A DNA stretch of 64,000 nt from Circinella umbellata (taxonomy: Eukaryota > Mucoromycota > Mucoromycetes > Mucorales > Lichtheimiaceae): contig JAIWNF010000040.1 of the NCBI GenBank assembly GCA_025093555.1, forward strand, positions 186,001-250,000, written 5' to 3'. Positions 4,030 through 53,955 of the stretch are shown piece after piece. The position numbers were made by a program, and so were the translations under genes. Each line of letters starts with the position of its first letter. The first letter of the stretch is position 1. The notes below the pieces were generated by a model, which worked only from the letters and a program-made list of their open reading frames with translations, searched no databases and had not been told where the DNA came from.

Positions 4030-4555
4030 AACTTTTGAATTTTTTGGCCTTGTGTTTACCGAGTACTATTGCATGCCCACTTGGTGCGTTCTAGGTAGCG
4101 AGGTAACAAAGTGCTATCGATATTGCTTTTGTGCCCACTGATAGTTTCTTTAGGGACGGATCAACCCTGCTTGGCGTGGCAAAACTGAGCCTTCCGAACA
4201 CCCGGCCACTACTTTTTCAGTCTTGTGATTTACCGAGTGCTAATGATGGCCGTTTAGTGCGCTATAGGTAACAAGGCAACAAAGTGCTATCGAAATTGCT
4301 TCCGTGCCCACTGATAGTACTTTAGGGAACAAATCGACTTTGCCCGAGGGCATAACTGAGTATTCCCGACCCAGCCACTACTTTGAAGTCTTGTGAAGAC
4401 CAAGTACTAATCCATGGCCACTTAGTACGTTATAGGTAAAGGCAACAAGAAGTGCTATCGAAATTGCTTCCGTGCCCACTGATAGTACTTCAAGAAACAA
4501 TCGATTTTGTCCCAGGGCGAAATTGAGAGTTTCTACCAAGGCCAGTAATTTTTTG
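4030..4555. repeat. degenerate tandem repeat, about 170-bp unit, three copies
   Basis: Three copies are marked by gtgctatcga near 4111, 4284 and 4452 (spacing 173 and 168), each followed by attgctt(c/t)(c/t)gtgcccactgatagt and later a cactt(a/g)gt(a/g)cgtt-like block. Copy 2 contains the stem tgcccgagggca. The segment is noticeably less AT-rich than its surroundings. No coding frame persists across the copies, so this looks like a local satellite or the relic of an element. Confidence 0.7.
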
Positions 4556-41790: not shown

Positions 41791-42872
41791 TTAAATTTTG
41801 CTTTTATATGTTTGAGAAGAAGGCAATCGGTCCTTTATATAACTGGTAATATCCTCAATTTCCTGCAATCCGGCTCCATGACCCAGTCCTGGATATAACT
41901 TAAACTCTGTTTTAAAACCAATCTTATTAAGATATTTTGCTGTAGCTTGACCATATTTTGGTTTGACGATCACATCATTTTCACCGTGACATATTAAAAA
42001 TGGTGTTTGTTTATTTGTTTCAGTACCAATCTATATGAATGGTAATATCATAAACGTTAGCTTTATATTGGTCATATAATTTTGTATAATCATTCATCAT
42101 CGTCTTCTTCATCATCACAGGTATATATATACTAGCTTACATTTTCAATTCCTTCGATTACACCTAACCACCCACTGCATCCAATAATACCACCCAACTT
42201 ATGATGAGTAGAATATCCCGTTAATAATGTAATTACACAACCTAGAAAATTAAATTTGTGAATTAACTTGAGAGCGACAAATATGTACCTTTTACCAATC
42301 TTTTTTTTTTCTTACCTTGAGAGAAACCACCTAATATAATTCTCTCTGAAGGAGTACCGCTATCAACTTCAGTTTGAATAAGTTGATTAACTATATATAC
42401 ATATATACATAATTAATTTCAACCATTTTCATATACATTTTTCTATATATAAAATTATCAATTAAAGTAACCAAAAAAACTTACTCAAATTTGAAGAGTG
42501 AATCATGCCCTTAGAATCTGTCTTTTTTAAATTGGCTGACTTGTCAAAACTAGGCACATTAAACCATGCAGGTAAAAGTGCGTTTCCATTGGCTTCGACC
42601 TCTATAAGTGGACTATGAAGATATTTATATACATATTGGTTTTTTTTTTACTTTTTTTTTTACACTTATGTCTCTACTTTGCATAGCACAAAAAAGAAAA
42701 CAAAAACTTACGCAGTAGGAAGAATCCACTTAATATGAGGAAATAAAGGAGCTAATTCTTCAACAAAAAATAACCAACCAGCTCCACTATCTCCAAGACC
42801 ATGAAGCCAAATGACAGTTCCAGTATGCTTTTCTGTAGCTTCAACAATAATAGGCTTAAGTAATTGCGACAT
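41791..42872 (-). CDS. acyl-protein thioesterase / lysophospholipase (APT1 family)
   Basis: Five exons on the minus strand: 42872-42712, 42612-42485, 42390-42316, 42241-42141, 42030-41791; 234 residues, typical length. Alpha/beta-hydrolase motifs are complete: VIWLHGLGDSGAGW (oxyanion loop), HIKWILPTAP, ILGGFSQG with the nucleophile Ser, HGENDVIV with the catalytic Asp, and GLGHGAG with the His. Family knowledge: LYPLA1/Apt1 removes palmitate from S-acylated proteins in the cytosol. No targeting signal is visible. It is the last conserved gene before the accessory island. Confidence 0.94.
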
Positions 42873-43320
42873 TTATACTTTGTTTTAAATTGATTGATTA
42901 CTGAAATGAAATGGACAAAAAAAAAAAAGATTTGTAATGTTGTTTTTCCTCCCCACACACGCACACACACGGATCAACATTTTCTACTTTATATAATATT
43001 TAATTCTGAGGTAAGCATGTGACACAAAATCAAGAGTGTGAAGAAGCAAAAAGAATGGGGATAGATATAATCCCCACCCCAATAATGCAAATGAAAACAG
43101 TGCTGTACTACATGCTTCAATAGGTAAGCAATGAGAAGACACGATCAAATGACGTATAAGAGGTATCTACAAAAATATTGAACCTACACTCTAGTTTTTT
43201 TTTTTTTTGTGACAATTAATAAAAAATTATAGTAACTTGTATATAATGTAAAAGGCATATATTAGAAGAGGTAAAGATTAAATAAATATCTAAATCGTGT
43301 TTTTTTTTTCAATGGGTTGA
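42873..43320. other. intergenic, nothing recognised
   Basis: Promoter side of the thioesterase gene with CA-rich and poly-T tracts. No coding sequence. Confidence 0.5.
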
Positions 43321-44340: not shown

Positions 44341-46033
44341 GAAACGATAAAAAATTAGATTAAATTCAGACTGGTAAGCCTAAAAGTGAAGAACTATTGG
44401 CCTATTTATTAGCAATCGCTATACTGTATATCTATAGTAGTACACCTAAAAGAGCAATGTCTCTCATTATAATTTTTTTTACATGCCAGAACACTCACTT
44501 GGCATAAAATTCCAATTTCAATTTTCTTACCATAATCCAATATAGATTAAGGTAACTGTAAGTTGAAAATTAAGAGGAGTGATTATTAGATGGTTACTTG
44601 ATGCATGAACAGTATTTTATTTATTGAACTACTGTGTTTGCCTATTTTATTTTATTACACATATTGAGAAGATACATTTTGAAATATTAGCTCGTTTTGA
44701 CTTGTGCAGCCCTTTTGAATGAACCATTCTATTTTCCTACGAATTGGCCTTTACATAGACCAATATATAACTTGAAATATATGCTATGGTGCAACAAAAA
44801 AAAGTGTATATGTATAAAATAGTAATCAATATACCCAATATTATTTTATTATTATGTATTAATACTAACCAATAAATGATGTGTATTTACAATTAAATAA
44901 GGTAAAAAGGTATTATATAAATTTCTATGAATGTGCACGATTGTAAAATAAAAAATACCTATTATCCAAGTAATCTAATAAATGTTATTAGTAGTTTCAT
45001 TATTAATGTGTGTGATGAATCTTGCCTCTTTTTTTTTTTTTTTTTTTTTTTTTTGTATATAAGATAATATTAGTGTATAATAAGATCGCTGTTGTTGTTT
45101 TGGTTATCATAATAGAGTGATGTGTGTGAACGAGAGAGAACAAAAGAGCTGCTGTTGATATTGATGATTCGTATTTCAATGGATGATCTTTTGTTGTCGA
45201 GGATTTATATTGACTTTTACTCGATACAGAGAATTGTTGATGGATGGTATGCTTTTTTTTTGTTATTGTTGCTCTTGACAACAGTAACTATTGAAATTAA
45301 TTTTGTATGATAGTATTTGATATACTTTTGTGATTATTCCTTTTGATATTGAATAAGAGTTGGGCACATGTATTGATTCTGTTGCTTAGATGGAATTATA
45401 TTTGTATTCATCGACGGTGATAATATAGTTGGTTATTTTGATTTTGAGTATTGCTTCTTGTTTTTCAGATTGTTGTAATTGATGGGTTGTAGCATATTTG
45501 TCATTGGTTTGATTAGACATTTTTGGTCTTGATTGTAGTGCTGGATCTTGAGTTTTTTTTTTTTTTTTTTTGATCCTTGACATGATAGATTTTTTTACGT
45601 TTAGAAATAGATGGACTTGTTTACTGCTTTTGATTTTATCTTTTTTGAAGAATATCCATTGATATAGAATATCTTTTCTATATATCGGAAGCTCTTTTGC
45701 TTCTCTGGTTGCCTGTTGATTTTAGATCTCTTTTGTTGTGTGTTTGTGTCTTTGTGTAGAGAAGGATGTATGAGGGATATGAGGGAATATTTGGATAGTA
45801 ATAATAAAGGTTAATAGTATTTTTTGTATTTTTTTTTGTATATCTTTTTTCATATATCTTTTTTTTTTGTATCTTTTTTTTTGGCAATCATCATCACACA
45901 CACAAATAACAACATTACCATTTACATTTCTTAAGAATACTGGAATTTCAGTATTAATATTTCACAACGTACCTTTCCTTTGTTCTTTTTGGAATAAGAG
46001 GGAATAGTCTTGGGTATATTGATGTTGGATTGA

Positions 46034-46304
46034 GGCAAGACTGGAATATTCATCCACTGTTATTTTCGAATATGGTGGCAGGAATTTGCGTGTGTGCATA
46101 TTCGTCCACGTGTGTATGTATGTGTGTTTGTGTGTGTAACCTCCATATCCAAAAATAACAGTGAATAGAATAAATACATCATGACCTTCTTGAAGTGATA
46201 ATTTAGATTATTGTTCTTGAAATAACTTGAGAAATGATCGTCTTGATATGCAATAATAGTATACGTATGCATAGAAGCGTCGAAAGTCATATTCCAGTCT
46301 TGCC
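46034..46304. repeat. nested inverted repeat, about 270 bp
   Basis: ggcaagactggaatat (46034-46049) is matched by its exact reverse complement at 46289-46304. Inside, cactgttatttt.cgaatatgg (about 46054-46074) pairs imperfectly with ccatatccaaaaataacagtg (about 46142-46163). The innermost loop is a GT-rich microsatellite. It may be a foldback element or a long hairpin; no flanking target duplication was identified. Confidence 0.6.
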
Positions 46305-46531
46305 AACACCGAAAATAAATACGAAGAAGCAAAAATCTTGATAATTAAAAGGTTTTTTGTTGTGTTTCTTGATAAATATAGTTCACCTTCTTGACTAGAT
46401 CGTAATGGATCGTAATGGATGCGCCATACGTAATAGATAGTTCACCATGATAATTTAAATAGATGTGTACCTCGTGTAATACGAGAACGAAACCAAATCC
46501 CACATTTTGTTGTTGTCTACCACATGGAATA

Positions 46532-46566
46532 TTATTATGACACTCATCTGGTCTGTGTCATAATAA
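46532..46566. repeat. perfect 12-bp hairpin TTATTATGACAC / GTGTCATAATAA
   Basis: Arms 46532-46543 and 46555-46566 are exact reverse complements around an 11-base loop. It lies 230 bp from the nested inverted repeat. Confidence 0.6.
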
Positions 46567-47560
46567 CAAATTGCCCACCTTTTTCTTTATTCTTCTTGAT
46601 GTTACTTATGCACTTCATCATATGGATTGATGTATGTTGTTTCTTGAATAACACGGGTTCATACATCACCAAATGATTTGCTACTTGACTGGTTATTGTT
46701 TTTATTCACTGGATGAATATGTAATAAAACTTGAAATTGATTTGATGATGGTTTATCAAATATATCTTGAATGTGGTGTTTGGTTTCTTGTGTGTATATG
46801 TACTCCTTATTTCAAAGACAGATGACAATAGAACAACTATGCTTGATGGATAGCATGTTGTTTCTTGAATAATGAATAAATCATCTGAAATAATTTATCA
46901 ACACCAGATAAATATAAAGCACCATGAAATAAGATACAAAATCGGTTACAGGAGGTACACACCAAGCAGGAGCATATACACACATGAATCCTTCCTATCT
47001 TGTTAATTCCCATCAAAATGTTGCGGTCATAATATGGTTCCAATAAAAAAACAAGTAGTAAAGAGTTACAAGTTTCGTTTAAGATTGATCAAAAAGTTGA
47101 TAAAGTAAGACACCGCATTGTGAAACCAAATAGTGACCGCATCAAATAGCTGAACAATAAATATTGCTCCCTTTTTTTTCTAGACTAGCAATTATATATA
47201 ATTTTTACCAGAATAGTTCCATTATCACCCAATATAATACACACCAAAGTACCAACTATGAGTCTTAATAATAAAAACAATAGCAACAGGTAAATCGGTT
47301 CAATCAATGTAAGAAGAAAGAAACAAAGATTGTATCATAAAGGTAAACATTCCCAAAGGAAATGAATATGTGAAGATGAATGAAAAAAGGTTTTTCATTA
47401 TTAGAGCCGCCAAGAACTAATATCAAAGCACAATAAATTCCATTCAAGCCAAAGACGGGATTCTCTTTTTTTTTGTTTCTCTCTTATACACAGATGTATA
47501 ATAATGGCCTGCTTTCACAAATTAATTTACGAAAACAATTGGATTAACTTTCTAATCACC

Positions 47561-48130
47561 AAAATCAAATACTAAAAAATGACAATAGCTAGCCATAGTT
47601 AGGGTCAAAGTCAGTCGTTACCACGACATCATTAATAAAAAACCACGGGAGCCTTGAATTGCCAAAGCATTGAATAGGGTCAAAGTCAGTCGTCACCAAA
47701 AACGACCATTCACATCGCGTACACTCCATGTTTCTTTTCCATATCGCCAAGGAAATAGAAACAACGCTTTCTTCCACCTTGGAAAGCCCGATTAGAACAC
47801 ATAGTACACCTTCCCACAATGTACCATGATTCCCGACACAGTTGCAATAAGCCCCTTCTTGACAGAAAGACGATCCCAGCTTCAAAATCTCAACGGGAGG
47901 TAAGAAGAAGAAGGAAAAACAGAAACAATGACACAGAGTCTATGCCATAACCGGTGGGAGATCGAGGTACCCATATACACAACAGCCTAGGATGACCAGA
48001 GACTATTCGGAATGAAGAGTCGTTATTGCAGTAGAGCTACTTCGAACGAACTCTTGTATCCACAGCTACCACCTCATTAATCCCGAAGAGCAGAGAATGG
48101 GGTCATAATGGAACTTTTGACAAGATCTTT
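47561..48130 (-). other. GC-richer segment with a 75-bp-spaced direct repeat, possible end of the orphan transcript
   Basis: An open frame on the minus strand (47885-47589) shows no motifs. agggtcaaagtcagtcgt occurs at 47601 and again at 47676. Base composition resembles the orphan gene upstream on the same strand, so this may be the far 3' part of its transcript, but no proof is visible. Confidence 0.3.
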
Positions 48131-48666
48131 GCGACTTGAAAACAGTAACTTGAAACAATGACAACAACTTGTTTTGACCTTGATAATTTTTCTAACAGAT
48201 TTCTTTTCATAACAAATTTATTCCCGTAGATAGAGAAAAAAATGTTATAAAAAGAAACCAATAAAAAATATATGAAAAACTTTCAATATTTAGTAACCCA
48301 CACTTTTAAAGTATATAAAAATATATAGAAATATATAAAAATAAAAAATGATAATGAAAATGATAACTTACAGTAAAATAATATAAAATTAAATGAGTCT
48401 TGTATGTCATTAAGAACAAAAACCGGCGGCTGCAAAAGATCTGTTGGTGTTCCAAATATGCCTCATCTTGCCCACCAAGACTAACAAGGAATGACGTAGG
48501 GGTATACAAAAGCTCGCCCTTTTCACCCTACCACAATAACGAACATCTCCACCCCAAATAGTCTAAGGCCAGAGCCTAGACCGAGCATATACAGATACCT
48601 CTTTACTCCCGGTGGTTATGACACAGGACATCCATGCCACATTCTATTCCCCCAATCCCTTCTTAC

Positions 48667-48982
48667 CTTGATTCCAATGAGACCATCCACCGAAATGCCT
48701 TCCTGCCAACCCGTTTCAAAAGGCAAACTGCCACAGTGCCGACACCAAGCCAACCAAACCTTCTAAAGCGCACACACACGCAGCATAATAACGTCTATAT
48801 ATTCCATTAAAAACAATTAAATGATTAGTTCTCAGCGATTATTAATCTCAAGTTATTTTGTTATGATAGAAAACTTACCATGACACTGTTTGTATCATTG
48901 ACTTCAAAAAGCCAAAGCGCCCAGGACAGACACCCCATCATATGTCCACCCGACATACAAAAAGCACAAACAGAACTCATGC
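48667..48982 (-). CDS. possible small spliced ORF (about 77 residues) in downstream exons E and F
   Basis: Exons 48980-48879 (from ATG; exon begins 48982 after TACGTAG) and 48794 onwards join in frame across a GTAAGT…TATAG intron and read MSSVCAFCMSGGHMMG… into TLLCCVCVRFRRFGW…, ending SLESR and a TAA that overlaps the next GTAAG. The product would be Cys-, Trp- and Gly-rich with hydrophobic stretches. No family recognised. The frame may be fortuitous because the exons also look like a spliced 3' UTR of the gene at 49796-51823. Confidence 0.22.
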
Positions 48983-49783
48983 CTACGTAATATAATTTTA
49001 ATATACAAAAAAAAATTATTAGTAATTGGTGTTAAATTATTTTATTGGAAACTTGTTTTAAAAATAAGTTGTCAATATATAATTTTTTTTATCAACTTAC
49101 CACGACCTTGCATACATAAAAAAAAAAGCGCCAAAAAGAGCGCAGAAAAGACACACACACACCGGGCTGCCGCACAACAGCTATAAGAAAGAAATAAGAA
49201 TAAAATTATATCGTTAATTAGTTTTTATGAACATGAGAGATTGTTTTTTATATATAAATGTTTTTTCTTATCTTTTACACTTACCAGAAATGCTGAAGGC
49301 GTCGTAAAAGAAAAGAAAAAAAAAAGTGCCAAAGAAGACACAAAGGAACACACACGCCGGGCTGCCGCGCATCAGCTATAAAAATAAATAATTAAAGATA
49401 TATTGTCAATTAGTTTTTATGCACATGAGAAATTATTTTTCATATATAATTTTTTTATCTTTTAAATAAACTTACCAAAATGCCGAAGGCGTCGAAAAGA
49501 AAATAAGAAAAAAAAAGCCGTACACACACGGACGTAAGAGCAATCATCAACAGAGGTGCACACACAAACACATGTTGGGAAAGAGAGAGAGAAAGAAAAA
49601 AAAAAGTAAAAAAAAAAAAAGTAAAAAAATAAAAGGAACGCGAGAATTCCTTCCAGCCATCAAACGAACACAGTTACCCGTCGTCTATATATATATATAT
49701 ATATAAAGAATAAAAAAAAAAGTTAATATTTATAAACAGTAAGATAAAAAAAAGCATCAATATAAAAATAAATAATACTTACG
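48667..49783 (-). ncRNA. series of spliced downstream exons, two of them repeated cassettes (3' UTR or separate RNA)
   Basis: On the minus strand, canonical splice signals follow one another after the orphan stop codon: donor GTAAGTA directly at 49782, then exon B 49684-49476, exon C 49375-49285, exon D 49180-49101, exon E 48982-48879, exon F from 48794. Every exon is preceded by T-rich …TAG and followed by GTAAG. Exons C and D share gcggcagcccgg(c/t)gtgtgtg; exons B and C share gacgccttc(g/a)gcattt; and introns B-C and C-D share aattagtttttatg(a/c)acatgaga. Thus an exon plus intron unit of about 190 bp was duplicated. Frames across B-C-D-E do not stay consistently open, so a non-coding role is favoured. 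Confidence 0.4.
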
Positions 49784-49795
49784 AATTATTCCGCC

Positions 49796-51823
49796 TCAAT
49801 CTTCATCATCATCATCCCCAAGGATTTCAGCAAGAATGTCTTCAACGACTGGAGGTCGTGCAGCTTGTGGTGGTGGGAGCAAAGGAGCTTCATCGTCATT
49901 CATAAGACCGTCGACACCTACACGGCCTTCTTCACTACGGCCATGATTTATAGAAATATTGGTATCACCCTCATCTATTCGTCGACGTCTAACTGAGACA
50001 TACTCAGCTTCATCCGTTGAAAAAGTGTCCTCTGTGGTATCAAGACCACGCTTTACACCCCGGACAGAAGGAGCTGCAACAGAAGGGCCTGGCACGGTGG
50101 TATTTTGATCCTGGATTGGCACAATGGCTTCACCATTTTCTTCACTTTGACCATCTTGACTGTCAAGACTCTTGGAATCACCCTCATCCACACGTCGACG
50201 TACAACTGGAGCATACTCAATTTCATCCGTGGAAAAAGTGTTATCATCAGTGGTATCAAGACCACGTTTAACACCCCGAACAGAAGGAGCTGCAACAGAA
50301 GAGTCTGGTTGTTCAACAGCGGGATCTTGATAGGCAGGGATCAGCTCAGAGGCATCACCTTCTGCAAGTTCATCGGCACCTACATGAACTTCTTCATCTT
50401 CACTATAAGTGTCATCTTCTTCTTCAATAATCGGCAAGCTAGCCACAAAAGTAGCACAACGCTGTTTAACAGGTTGGAAAATAGCTGCCTTTGAAAAGTC
50501 TAACTTAAAAGATAGAGCTTTTCCTTCATCATTGGCATCCTCAACCAAAGTGGAAGCATTTGTCATAGTAGAGAAGTCCGAAGACATATCTACAGAACTA
50601 GCATTACCAACAGTAGTATTGTTGGATTGGTCCAAAGACGGTAACATGTTGGTTGCAAGTGCATCAGATGCTGTGGAATCACCCACATCTTGCTCATGTT
50701 CAGAGGCCTCAGCTACAGCAGCATCAGCAATTATTTCAAGACTAAAGTCGTCCGAATAATTATCAGTGCCATTTGCAGGAGTGTTTTCCTCTGGCATTGA
50801 CTGCTCTTGTGCTGGTGGCATAAAAGCCAACGCAGCAGCAGTATGCATAGCATCAGTGATATTAAAACCAACTGTGCTTTCTTGTTGTACATGTTGATGT
50901 TCAAGTTCTTGTACGCGGCTATCCATGGATAGGGAATCACCACCAATACCCATGGCAACAGGACCAATCTCTCCAGCAGCTGCAGAAGGGATTTCATTGG
51001 AATCATCTACGAAAGAATCATCCATTTCCACATCACAATCAGGGAAAGGTGTTCCTGTTGGAGAAGAAGACAAAGTACCATTAAGTGCCAAGGAATCAGC
51101 GTCAGCTTCATTTTCCCATGATTGCACAACAGCATCGCGATTAATATCAACAGGCATCGAAGATGAAGGCTCATCTTGATGTTGAACAGAAGCCGAAGCT
51201 TGGGCACTAGGACCTAAGTCCATGGCCGCGAACTGTTCGCACAAGAGATCAACTGCATCAGGGAGCACAGTTGGCGATCTGTTTGAATGTGACTTTTTAC
51301 GGTCATCATTACGACGGTGAGGAAAGATACCACGCAAGAGATCTTCCAATGTTTCATACACCTCCACATCAACAGGGTAGAAGTTCTTGGCGCCACCATT
51401 AGGTGTGTGAAATCTAATCCAATCATCGTGATTATACTTGAAATATGGAATAGGAGACTTTGGCTCTTCTCGGGTTTTGCCCACAACAGGCGGTTTACAC
51501 AGCACACGCCGCAAACGAGAAACCTCCTCATAACGAGAAGCAACAAATGCATAGTCGAGACTTGGCGGCAACGGCGAAACGAAAAATGGTCCCAATGACA
51601 AGCATTGTTCAACAATAAATGTGCGCAAAGGATTGCAACACGATGAAAAAGAGATGAATGCCACAAGGGCAAGAAATGCATAACTGCAAAACCACAGGAA
51701 GTGGAACAAATAGTAGTAGTAGACAACGTTCAACGCAATGAGAGCGAAATAGCAGGCAAAAACAGCCAAACCGAAAGTAACGAAAGGTTCGTAACGGAAG
51801 GATTCTTCAAGTAGCCGGAACAT
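49796..51823 (-). CDS. orphan 675-residue protein: two N-terminal membrane helices, acidic disordered tail, 72-residue tandem repeat
   Basis: Single long exon; the first in-frame ATG is at 51823 (MFRLLEESF), since the open frame upstream has none. Residues about 15-62 form two membrane segments (VTFGLAVFACYFALIALNVV and a second rich in Phe/Tyr/Leu). A conserved-looking block follows (LGPFFVSPLPPSLDYAFVASRY, YFKYNHDDWIRFHTPNGGAK). From about residue 220 the protein is disordered, acidic and Ser/Thr-rich. Two tandem copies of a 72-residue unit begin near residues 507 and 579, each with SVAAPSVRGVKRGLDTT and EY…RRR(V/I)DEGD, offset by exactly 216 bp; the tail ends DDDDED. Base composition is GC-richer than neighbours. 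No known family was recognised. Its stop codon is followed within 13 bases by an intron donor. Confidence 0.75.
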   Translation of the reverse strand: MFRLLEESFRYEPFVTFGLAVFACYFALIALNVVYYYYLFHFLWFCSYAFLALVAFISFSSCCNPLRTFIVEQCLSLGPFFVSPLPPSLDYAFVASRYEEVSRLRRVLCKPPVVGKTREEPKSPIPYFKYNHDDWIRFHTPNGGAKNFYPVDVEVYETLEDLLRGIFPHRRNDDRKKSHSNRSPTVLPDAVDLLCEQFAAMDLGPSAQASASVQHQDEPSSSMPVDINRDAVVQSWENEADADSLALNGTLSSSPTGTPFPDCDVEMDDSFVDDSNEIPSAAAGEIGPVAMGIGGDSLSMDSRVQELEHQHVQQESTVGFNITDAMHTAAALAFMPPAQEQSMPEENTPANGTDNYSDDFSLEIIADAAVAEASEHEQDVGDSTASDALATNMLPSLDQSNNTTVGNASSVDMSSDFSTMTNASTLVEDANDEGKALSFKLDFSKAAIFQPVKQRCATFVASLPIIEEEDDTYSEDEEVHVGADELAEGDASELIPAYQDPAVEQPDSSVAAPSVRGVKRGLDTTDDNTFSTDEIEYAPVVRRRVDEGDSKSLDSQDGQSEENGEAIVPIQDQNTTVPGPSVAAPSVRGVKRGLDTTEDTFSTDEAEYVSVRRRRIDEGDTNISINHGRSEEGRVGVDGLMNDDEAPLLPPPQAARPPVVEDILAEILGDDDDED

Positions 51824-51969
51824 AAGTAACAAAGTAAAAAAAAAAAGAGGCTCTGAGGGGTAAAGAAGAAGAAAAAAGAAAATGAGAGAACGGGATATAT
51901 TTTGATTCAGAAAAAAAAAACCATGTGATTCCTCATTAGGCAATTTTTTTTTTTACTTTTTAACATATT

Positions 51970-52530
51970 TTTCGGGTCATGGTACTATGTAAGCGTATAA
52001 AGCGTGAATGTGTTTAATAAAAGTAAAAAAGTTGCAGTAGCAACATTGTTATTGAGATGGAATGACGCGACCTATACTTTGTTTGTTCCAGAATGCTCAG
52101 TTCCTGTAGAATTTACAACCAAGTCTATTTTTTTTTACTTTAAGGAATGAACTTTTTTTTTTCTTTTTCCCAATTTCCTTTTTTGTTCATATTTTTTCGC
52201 GTCATGCTACTATGAGCGTGTAAAAAACATGAGTGTTCATAATAAAGGTGAAGAAGTGGCAGTGGGAACATTGTTGTAGAGATGGAGTGACACAACTTAA
52301 TCTTTATTTGTCAGTTTTTGTAGAATTTACACTTGTGTCTAATTTTTTTATTCTAAGGAATGGCCGTTTTCTTTTTTTATATATTTTTTGTGTCATGGTA
52401 TTATGGGTCTGTCAGAGCGTGAATACCTTTAATAAAAGCTACAGTAGCATGAATTAATACAACTTAATTTTAGTTTCCCACGCATTGTGTTCATTCCGAT
52501 AAATTTTATACCCGTGGCTCCTCTTTTTTA
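51970..52530. repeat. degenerate tandem repeat upstream of the orphan gene, three copies
   Basis: Each copy begins gtcatg(g/c)ta(c/t)tatg (51976, 52201, 52392; spacing 225 and 191), continues with agcgt(g)…taataaa(a/g)g, and copies 1 and 2 share gagatgga(a/g)tgac.c.ac and gtagaatttaca…tctaagg-like ends. Located 150 bp upstream of the orphan start codon. Confidence 0.6.
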
Positions 52531-53028
52531 AGATATGCAAGCAGTTTAATATATGTTCATCCTATTTACGTGTTGAAGCTTTACAAATGTATATTACTAC
52601 AACGTACTCTCTTCTTTTTATTAATAAAAATGTTGTATTTTACGTATCATGAGTGAATAATTATCTTCCCAGTGGCATCAGAAATAACATTCAGGAAAAA
52701 TACCAAGATTATAATGATTTTGGTATCTAACTAAATTCAAAGTGATACCTTCAATCATAACATACTATACGTTGATCTTACAACACTATTAGTTAATATA
52801 ATGTTTTACTTGTTGCTAATCAGATCATTGGTATATTAAATTAACTACTAAATGTGTTTCTTTTTATTTTTTTATTTAATTTAATAAAAAACGGACTGTA
52901 CAGTAGTATACAGTATGAACAATCTACAGTATGAAAATATACAAGTCTCATAATAATGATAAGAATTCGTATGTATACGTACGTATAACATGAAGTTACA
53001 GAAATGAAATAAGATAAGCGTACTAGTT

Positions 53029-53030
<2 letters not shown>

Positions 53031-53068
<38 letters not shown>
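53031..53068. repeat. (GA)n microsatellite
   Basis: About 19 uninterrupted AG/GA units in the upstream flank of the orphan gene. Confidence 0.9.
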
Positions 53069-53072
<4 letters not shown>

Positions 53073-53591
53073 AGAAAGGTTTTAAAAAAAATACGTATAT
53101 TTTTATGCCCTCCCTCTTCTCTTTTACCTTCTCCTTCAATTTCATAATGAATTTTTACACATTGAATCCATTTATCTTAAACTATTAATGTTTCTTTCAA
53201 CAATAGCCCTTACGTACTTTTGTAAAAATTCGATAAGGTCAACCCTACTTTTATTAACTTTTATATATTTTGTTCCTTTTTTATTAAATTCCAGAAATTT
53301 CTTGAACAACCTGTTAATGTGTCAGTAAATAATATTATACTCTCTGATCGATGAATACTAACCCGCTCCCTTTTAATTTTTTTTTATCTACCGAAGACAG
53401 TTATTATTGCAAAACTAAAGTACGTAATTCTCACTATATTATTACCACAGTAGTAAATTATACAGTCATGGCATTATTATTATTTAATTTTTTTGCTTTT
53501 CGTTTAATAAAATGCTATCATTCAATCGTAAAGACATCGGATCACTATACTATCACAGTTTATTTTTTTATTTGATTGAATTCCCAAAACA

Positions 53592-53955
53592 ATTATACAG
53601 CCTAGAGCATCGTCGCTATCAGGCGCGAAGCGCCTTTCTGGGGGTCAAGGGGGGTTTTACCCCCCTTGCGACGTGTTTCCCGTTGAATGACTCGAAGCGA
53701 AGCGAGGCAGGCAAACGCTTGTCTTTACTACTACAAAGTTTAGATTTTTATAAGACCTAAAAAAGGAAATTTTGCAAGCTGCGCTTTCTCTGTTGTGGCA
53801 TATATAACAGACCCATTTTAACTGAAAAACTATTATACAGCCTTGAACAAACTTACTACCAGGCGCGAAGCGCCTTTTGGGGGTCAAAAGGGGGGGAAGG
53901 CTTTGCGACGCAAACCGCTAAATGGCCCGGAGCGAAGCGAAGGGTTGCTAGTCCT
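53592..53955. repeat. pair of GC-rich palindromic repeat elements
   Basis: Two homologous copies, 53592-53717 and 53832-53955, 240 bp apart. Both begin tattatacagcct (first copy aattatacagcct), carry the perfect hairpin ggcgcgaagcgcc (53622-53634 and 53862-53874), then tgggggtcaa, a G/C run (in copy 1 the stem aaggggggt/accccccctt-like), gcgacg, and an agcgaagcga block. They stand out as GC islands in AT-rich DNA. The design recalls mobile GC clusters or double-hairpin elements of fungal mitochondrial genomes, but this context is nuclear. Confidence 0.75.

Follow-up and report, generated by a model that had tools for sequence, protein, structure and literature searches.

A GC-rich open reading frame (ORF) accompanied by repeats lies within the 64-kb stretch of Circinella umbellata DNA analyzed here (the window), and the question raised by this locus is whether it represents an orphan gene shaped by tandem duplication, as an earlier note on the sequence had suggested, or belongs to something larger. 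The gene itself was found as described in that note: the ORF encodes 675 amino acids, has a G + C content of 0.449 compared to 0.309 for the window, shows two hydrophobic segments in a hydropathy profile (residues 13–31 and 39–57) where two membrane helices had been proposed, and contains the 72-residue tandem repeat in two copies. Likewise, the two duplicated exon cassettes downstream were recovered as a repeat at 49118–49516 (period 192, two copies), whose two copies correspond to the putative exons E3 and E4, their splice signals being intact. The upstream tandem repeats, three of which had been reported, are real and amount to two copies plus a part (51964–52165 pairs with 52188–52378 at 72% identity, and 51951–52023 with 52367–52438 at 75%). 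In contrast, neither the orphan status nor the location in an island between conserved genes held, as the locus turned out to be a dispersed multicopy unit, and its distinctive feature is not tandem duplication but a giant RNA hairpin at 47764–48771 that had been missed.

A dispersed unit with one long coding frame

A search for further copies in the C. umbellata genome (50.8 Mb in 210 contigs) yielded 18 copies of the unit spread over 11 contigs, with four copies each on contigs C146 and C1, two on C101, and one each on C178, C183, C16, C149, C127, C166, C152, and C153. The shared unit begins near position 44825 (Table 1) and not at 47561, where the region delimited previously (47561–53580) starts; from about 53104 onward, that region consists of a dispersed repeat unrelated to the unit (53104–53600; at least 28 other places matched among the 40 scored of 77 candidates), and two copies of a 69-nt repeat come next (53586–53894). 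When inspected by eye, the left ends were alike across copies and the right ends were not: the match to the C178 copy stops at 52489 and homology to the C153 copy extends to 53072. At the left ends of eight copies and the right ends inspected, no terminal repeat and no target duplication could be made out by eye. Helitron, LINE, and foldback identities were rejected: although the copies agree at their left ends, the same inspection by eye showed neither a CTRR end nor poly-A, terminal repeats, or target duplications.

Table 1. Coordinates of the unit and its parts within the window.
Feature	Position	Strand	Basis or remark
Whole unit, ~7.8 kb	44825..52662	-	Common to the C183 and C146_162k copies; ends approximate
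Putative last exon E6, first part with giant hairpin	47764..48794	-	Starts at 48794, just before the hairpin; 3' end approximate
Hairpin 3' arm	47764..48190	-	RNA folding
Hairpin loop, A/T-rich, as conserved as the arms	48191..48375	-	RNA folding
Hairpin 5' arm	48376..48771	-	RNA folding
Putative exon E5, 104 nt, recurs in a Phascolomyces gene model	48879..48982	-	Splice signals
Putative exon E4, 80 nt	49101..49180	-	Tandem cassette, splice signals
Putative exon E3, 91 nt, duplicate of E4	49285..49375	-	Tandem cassette, splice signals
Putative exon E2, 209 nt, non-coding	49476..49684	-	Splice signals
ORF, 675 aa, in putative exon E1 (E1 ends at 49783)	49796..51823	-	Open frame; two N-terminal hydrophobic segments, acidic tail
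71–72-aa repeat in ORF, two copies	49959..50308	-	Period 213–216 nt, 83–89% identical
Upstream repeat of ~220 bp, two copies and a part	51951..52438	-	Self-comparison

The copies differ in their relationships depending on the part of the unit that is compared. Over the N-terminal portion of the ORF, the window copy and the C183, C146_162k, and C178 copies are 0.8–1.6% apart and the C153 copy is 17% away, whereas in the hairpin block the C146_15k copy (1.9%) is closest to the window among eight units compared. This mosaic grouping suggests that copies have recombined or undergone gene conversion with one another. With the C178 copy the window shares a longer segment at the left, including a neighboring gene (41806–43095, which we take to encode an acyl-protein thioesterase) that is 98% identical, indicating that a segmental duplication took this gene along. 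These comparisons place the locus, as one copy, in a dispersed gene family of Circinella that is still evolving. Relatives of the ORF, the left block, and the hairpin block that are distant, decayed, or partial were also observed on contigs C68, C167, C36, C57, C131, and C184 and at C16:30580 and C152:1-1021, a distribution that suggests birth and death of copies.

Some further elements were observed in or near the copies. An insert of ~810 bp, bounded by TA dinucleotides, is present in the C183 copy (locus L039) ~1.28 kb upstream of where the ORF starts; the ends of this insert are like CAGTAAGTATTCGCTAAACCGGT and it resembles a small mariner-type element, and similar ends also adjoin the C1_1167k copy. 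Elsewhere in the window, a tandem repeat with a period of 168 is located at 4058–4527 (2.8 copies, 78% matches), and a scan of the 64 kb with the bacterial setting detected no tRNA genes.

An open frame of 617–675 amino acids is present in 16 of the 18 copies; the N-terminus is disturbed in C146_134k, and C101_91k contains a stop. The dN/dS ratio had a median of 0.60 (range 0.43–0.69) in the 108 of 120 pairs among the 16 open copies that showed enough synonymous change, and on this evidence the ORF is a real, weakly constrained coding sequence. All complete frames (n = 16) encode a surplus of 78–101 acidic over basic residues, and the motif VDLLCEQFAAM is invariant across a 16-row alignment that includes the Phascolomyces homolog. 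The 72-residue repeat is confined to four window-type copies, and in the other 14 copies residues ~322–434 are matched twice instead. Sequence and profile searches, each of which scored the ~8,000 candidates sharing most words, together found 12 relatives among these candidates: two proteins of C. umbellata (one of which, P0001, is 97% identical to the window protein), six of C. minor, one of Phascolomyces articulosus (37% identity over 31% of the query), and three ENA proteins. The claim that the protein belongs to no recognized family was borne out, as no Pfam family reached the cut-off (lowest E-value 0.085); in particular, Pfam revealed no transposase, reverse transcriptase, or integrase domain in this only long ORF of the unit. 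The ORF protein also had no match among PDB chains and phage records, so that the homology to an ordinary known family which the earlier note had named as speaking against its own proposal was not found by Pfam, protein, PDB, or phage searches.

Between the ORF and E6 lie five putative introns of 84–118 nt that have GTAAGT-like donors as well as acceptors, and the GT/AG dinucleotides were found at 80 of 80 sites in all eight copies checked. Divergence amounted to 14% plus 14% gaps in the introns and 13% plus 5% gaps in the exons; gaps excepted, the putative exons are thus hardly more conserved than the introns. The tail of the Phascolomyces gene model P0011, when back-translated, aligned to the spliced E4–E5–E6 across both junctions with a score of 91.6 under lowered gap costs (60 local shuffles, 33.4 ± 6.9, highest 54.4), as compared to a score of 30.5 in an earlier alignment without splicing (shuffles 18.8 ± 2.3, highest 26.5). 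According to this alignment, the same E4–E6 junctions are used in the Phascolomyces gene model. Since indels break the frame of the alignment, E4–E6 appear to be conserved between the genera as RNA and not as protein, and a coding role of the downstream exons was rejected on account of the frame-breaking indels both among the copies and relative to Phascolomyces. A single minus-strand transcript presumably joins the ORF and the hairpin. As the first junction comes 13 nt after the ORF stop codon and is itself followed by four more, nonsense-mediated decay may act on this transcript too.

The giant hairpin and its base pairs

On the minus strand, positions 47750–48720 folded with −366 kcal/mol, compared to −248 ± 7.4 in 20 shuffles (z = −15.9); the plus strand of the same stretch reached −198 (z = −5.0). 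The stem comprises 340 pairs in a 3-kb fold of the window copy (141 A-U, 129 G-C, and 70 G-U) and 296 pairs in the consensus of 10 copies. When 1,100-nt pieces from both strands of the window were folded (230 folds), the hairpin was the most extreme, with a residual z of −7.5 followed by −2.7 for the next. All 10 copies examined out of the 18 form the hairpin, with energies of −431 to −467 kcal/mol for the sense strand and −238 to −278 for the antisense strand, and the hairpin blocks of the family copies are 92–98% identical to that of the window. No Rfam family matched at its gathering score between 41500 and 56000, where the matches with E < 0.02 are located at an AG microsatellite; a microRNA-like locus was rejected because of the stem length of ~300 bp and the missing match at gathering score. 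The G/T-rich stretch at 44930–45920 folded better on the plus strand in eight of eight copies; its candidacy as a second hairpin was dismissed with a z of only −1.4, as was a minus-strand fold at 46.8–47.7 kb with the same value.

Whether the pairing of the RNA is selected can be judged from the imperfections of the stem. A decaying DNA inverted repeat should accumulate G-U and A-C oppositions equally unless mutation is strand-biased, but the arms of the window copy contain 61 G-U pairs and 8 A-C mismatches (54–66 and 4–12, respectively, over 10 copies), so that the RNA fold appears selected. These unequal counts speak against a foldback or decaying DNA palindrome. Strand-biased mutation as the source of the G-U excess was rejected from the minor alleles in unpaired columns, where C>T (n = 11) and G>A (n = 10) are balanced. 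At pairs with a Watson-Crick majority, 34 transitions kept the pair and 14 broke it (p = 0.0055), and the same two classes numbered 24 and 34 in unpaired columns. Pairing was retained in 98.7% of 2,950 cells, compared to 43–49% when the arms were slid against each other, and four pairs show changes on both sides within the family. The within-family shuffle control was modest, with 32, 58, 17, 350, and 25 of 500 shuffles reaching the five observed values. The fraction of variable columns is nearly equal for paired (0.157) and unpaired (0.176) positions. Divergence is 0.048 and 0.047 in the two arms, 0.039 in the loop, and 0.035 in the block beyond; with loop and adjoining block diverging no more than the arms, a low divergence cannot by itself be read as selection on pairing, and that of the hairpin block may result from gene conversion. 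Taken together, the RNA fold itself appears to be under selection in the sense strand.

A DNA search with the hairpin block additionally gave eight weak matches (67–77%), distributed over seven places in the 1.35–1.95 Mb interval of C1, along with one partial copy of the first family on C16. Two loci of this second family were analyzed, L061 with two tandem units (L061:6087-8276) and L062 with one unit (L062:2381-3300). L061 has no stop-to-stop frame of at least 135 amino acids, and the single ORF of L062 (228 amino acids) lies outside the part common with L061. All three units fold into long hairpins (sense/antisense −503/−451, −392/−275, and −467/−407), and the one unit tested against shuffles had a z of −32. 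At 57–60% identity to the first family, 143 of 196, 155 of 207, and 156 of 210 alignable pairs were kept (73–75%, compared to 40–50% when slid), with 27–31 double changes versus 10–21 when slid. The G-U to A-C counts were 14:4, 31:7, and 12:5, a significant excess in two of the three units. The near-perfect arms of the second family may also stem from conversion between arms.

Possible functions of the hairpin

The anatomy of the unit is well supported by the sequence comparisons described above. As the most likely of the explanations considered, though one held at slightly less than even odds, we propose that a natural long hairpin RNA (hpRNA) forms the end of the family's mRNAs and is cut by Dicer into small RNAs restraining the family's own transcripts. 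The transcript would consist of the membrane-protein ORF, five short introns, and a last exon whose two arms pair as a G-U-rich hairpin of 300–340 bp. Dicer would cut this hairpin, and the resulting small RNAs could act on all family transcripts with 92–98% identical hairpin blocks, thereby keeping many copies in check. The G-U pairs would maintain the duplex as RNA, and the arms would be too unlike as DNA to behave as a perfect palindrome. By domain matches, the genome encodes four Piwi-domain loci, five RNA-dependent RNA polymerase (RdRP) loci, two loci with paired RNase III domains (Dicer-like, on contigs C150 and C210), and one locus with a single RNase III domain. Features that mark hpRNA loci were found together, namely a stem far beyond chance, maintained pairing of the sense strand, and encoded Dicer and Argonaute domains. 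In Mucor circinelloides, Dicer, an Argonaute, and two RdRPs are reported to produce small RNAs by which many genes are regulated (PMC4395119).

The targets of such small RNAs would lie within the family. A 35-nt core of the hairpin, with up to three mismatches allowed, is present only at the 18 loci, and in this search and the DNA search with the hairpin block only family members were matched. No targets outside the families were found in limited tests with the 35-nt core and with 17-mers in the window.

A structural 3' UTR duplex that binds proteins and controls how stable the membrane-protein mRNA is, whether it is retained in the nucleus, or how it is translated is a less likely alternative, yet one with evidence of its own. 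The pairing of the sense strand is protected, the hairpin resides inside the putative last exon, and the 70 G-U pairs among 340 might make it a poor Dicer substrate. A role tied to the membrane-protein mRNA is at odds, however, with the second family, as the unit common to L061 and L062 has the hairpin without an ORF of at least 135 amino acids, and the presence of an RNAi gene set favors processing by Dicer over a purely structural duplex.

That the unit is a non-autonomous mobile element, with the hairpin as by-product of an inverted repeat that it carries, is improbable. The 18 dispersed copies with mostly different flanks and the decayed or partial relatives elsewhere would fit such an element, but its only long ORF has no transposase or reverse transcriptase domain, neither terminal repeats nor target duplications were seen by eye at the ends inspected (eight left ends, and right ends), introns were retained, and the 61:8 ratio departs from the equality of G-U and A-C predicted for a decaying DNA inverted repeat. 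No better placed is the view that segmental duplication and gene conversion have spread an ordinary, fast-evolving family of membrane proteins, in which the conserved downstream RNA would be incidental. It would account for dN/dS ratios of 0.43–0.69 in 108 pairs, the longer segment with the 98% identical neighbor gene shared by the window and C178 copies, the different grouping of copies by different parts of the unit, and the conservation of loop and flank to the same degree as the arms. It does not explain why the hairpin block is the most uniform part in comparisons between subfamilies, why the hairpin occurs without the ORF, why exons of the unit recur out of frame in Phascolomyces, or why G-U pairs exceed A-C mismatches 61:8.

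Far more speculative, and very unlikely in our judgment, is a selfish element with its own brake, in which a single transcript would combine a membrane-protein poison from the first exon with an antidote of siRNAs from the G-U-tuned long hairpin of the last exon that silences the family in carrier nuclei; the ORF-less second family would then represent freed brakes. A hairpin exon is not known from the wtf driver family. Membership in that family was rejected, as no wtf protein occurred among the sequence and profile matches and the lowest Pfam E-value (0.085) belonged to another family. The wtf spore killers of fission yeast (PMC5478263, PMC5478261) differ from the Circinella ORF, which matched no Pfam family.

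Relation to known hairpin systems

The proposed restraint of the family by its own hpRNA has a close parallel in the Nmy and Tmy hpRNA loci of Drosophila simulans, with which the Circinella unit shares a long hairpin RNA locus, a genome with RNAi, and a link to a multicopy, fast-changing gene family (PMC10292708). There, siRNAs from the Nmy and Tmy hairpins silence the Dox driver family, as demonstrated by knockouts (PMC10292708), whereas the Circinella case was derived from genomic sequence. Unlike Nmy and Tmy, the Circinella arms have no 17-mer in common with the rest of the window (low-complexity 17-mers left out) and no perfect complementarity to the ORF beyond 12 nt.

Fungal hairpin and miRNA-like loci (PMC9757828) resemble the unit in having a stem-loop RNA near a protein-coding gene; the Circinella hairpin, read from genomic DNA, is distinguished from them by its ~300-bp stem, its 18 copies, and the second family. 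In plants, C to T changes in one hairpin arm yielded effective hairpins via G:U pairs without the self-silencing of inverted repeats (PMC9263138). These transgenes share with the Circinella unit the property that G-U pairs keep the RNA duplex and break the DNA inverted repeat (PMC9263138), but they are designed constructs, whereas the Circinella hairpin is natural, contains mixed pair types, and has this property only in part.

No description of the present case was found in the titles and abstract openings of the literature searched. The proposal of an undescribed system is plausible, and no known family fitted, but the system is a dispersed multicopy unit and not an orphan gene. Natural long hairpin RNAs are poorly established, and PMC9757828 states that natural induction of RNAi by long hairpin RNA still needs exploration. 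Here, a multicopy protein gene of an early-diverging fungus with an RNAi gene set carries in its putative last exon a giant hairpin that is apparently selected as RNA, and a second family has such a hairpin but lacks the ORF. If the proposed explanation is true, it would become testable whether fungi restrain multicopy genes by built-in hairpins, and whether G-U pairs naturally stabilize such hairpins as DNA.
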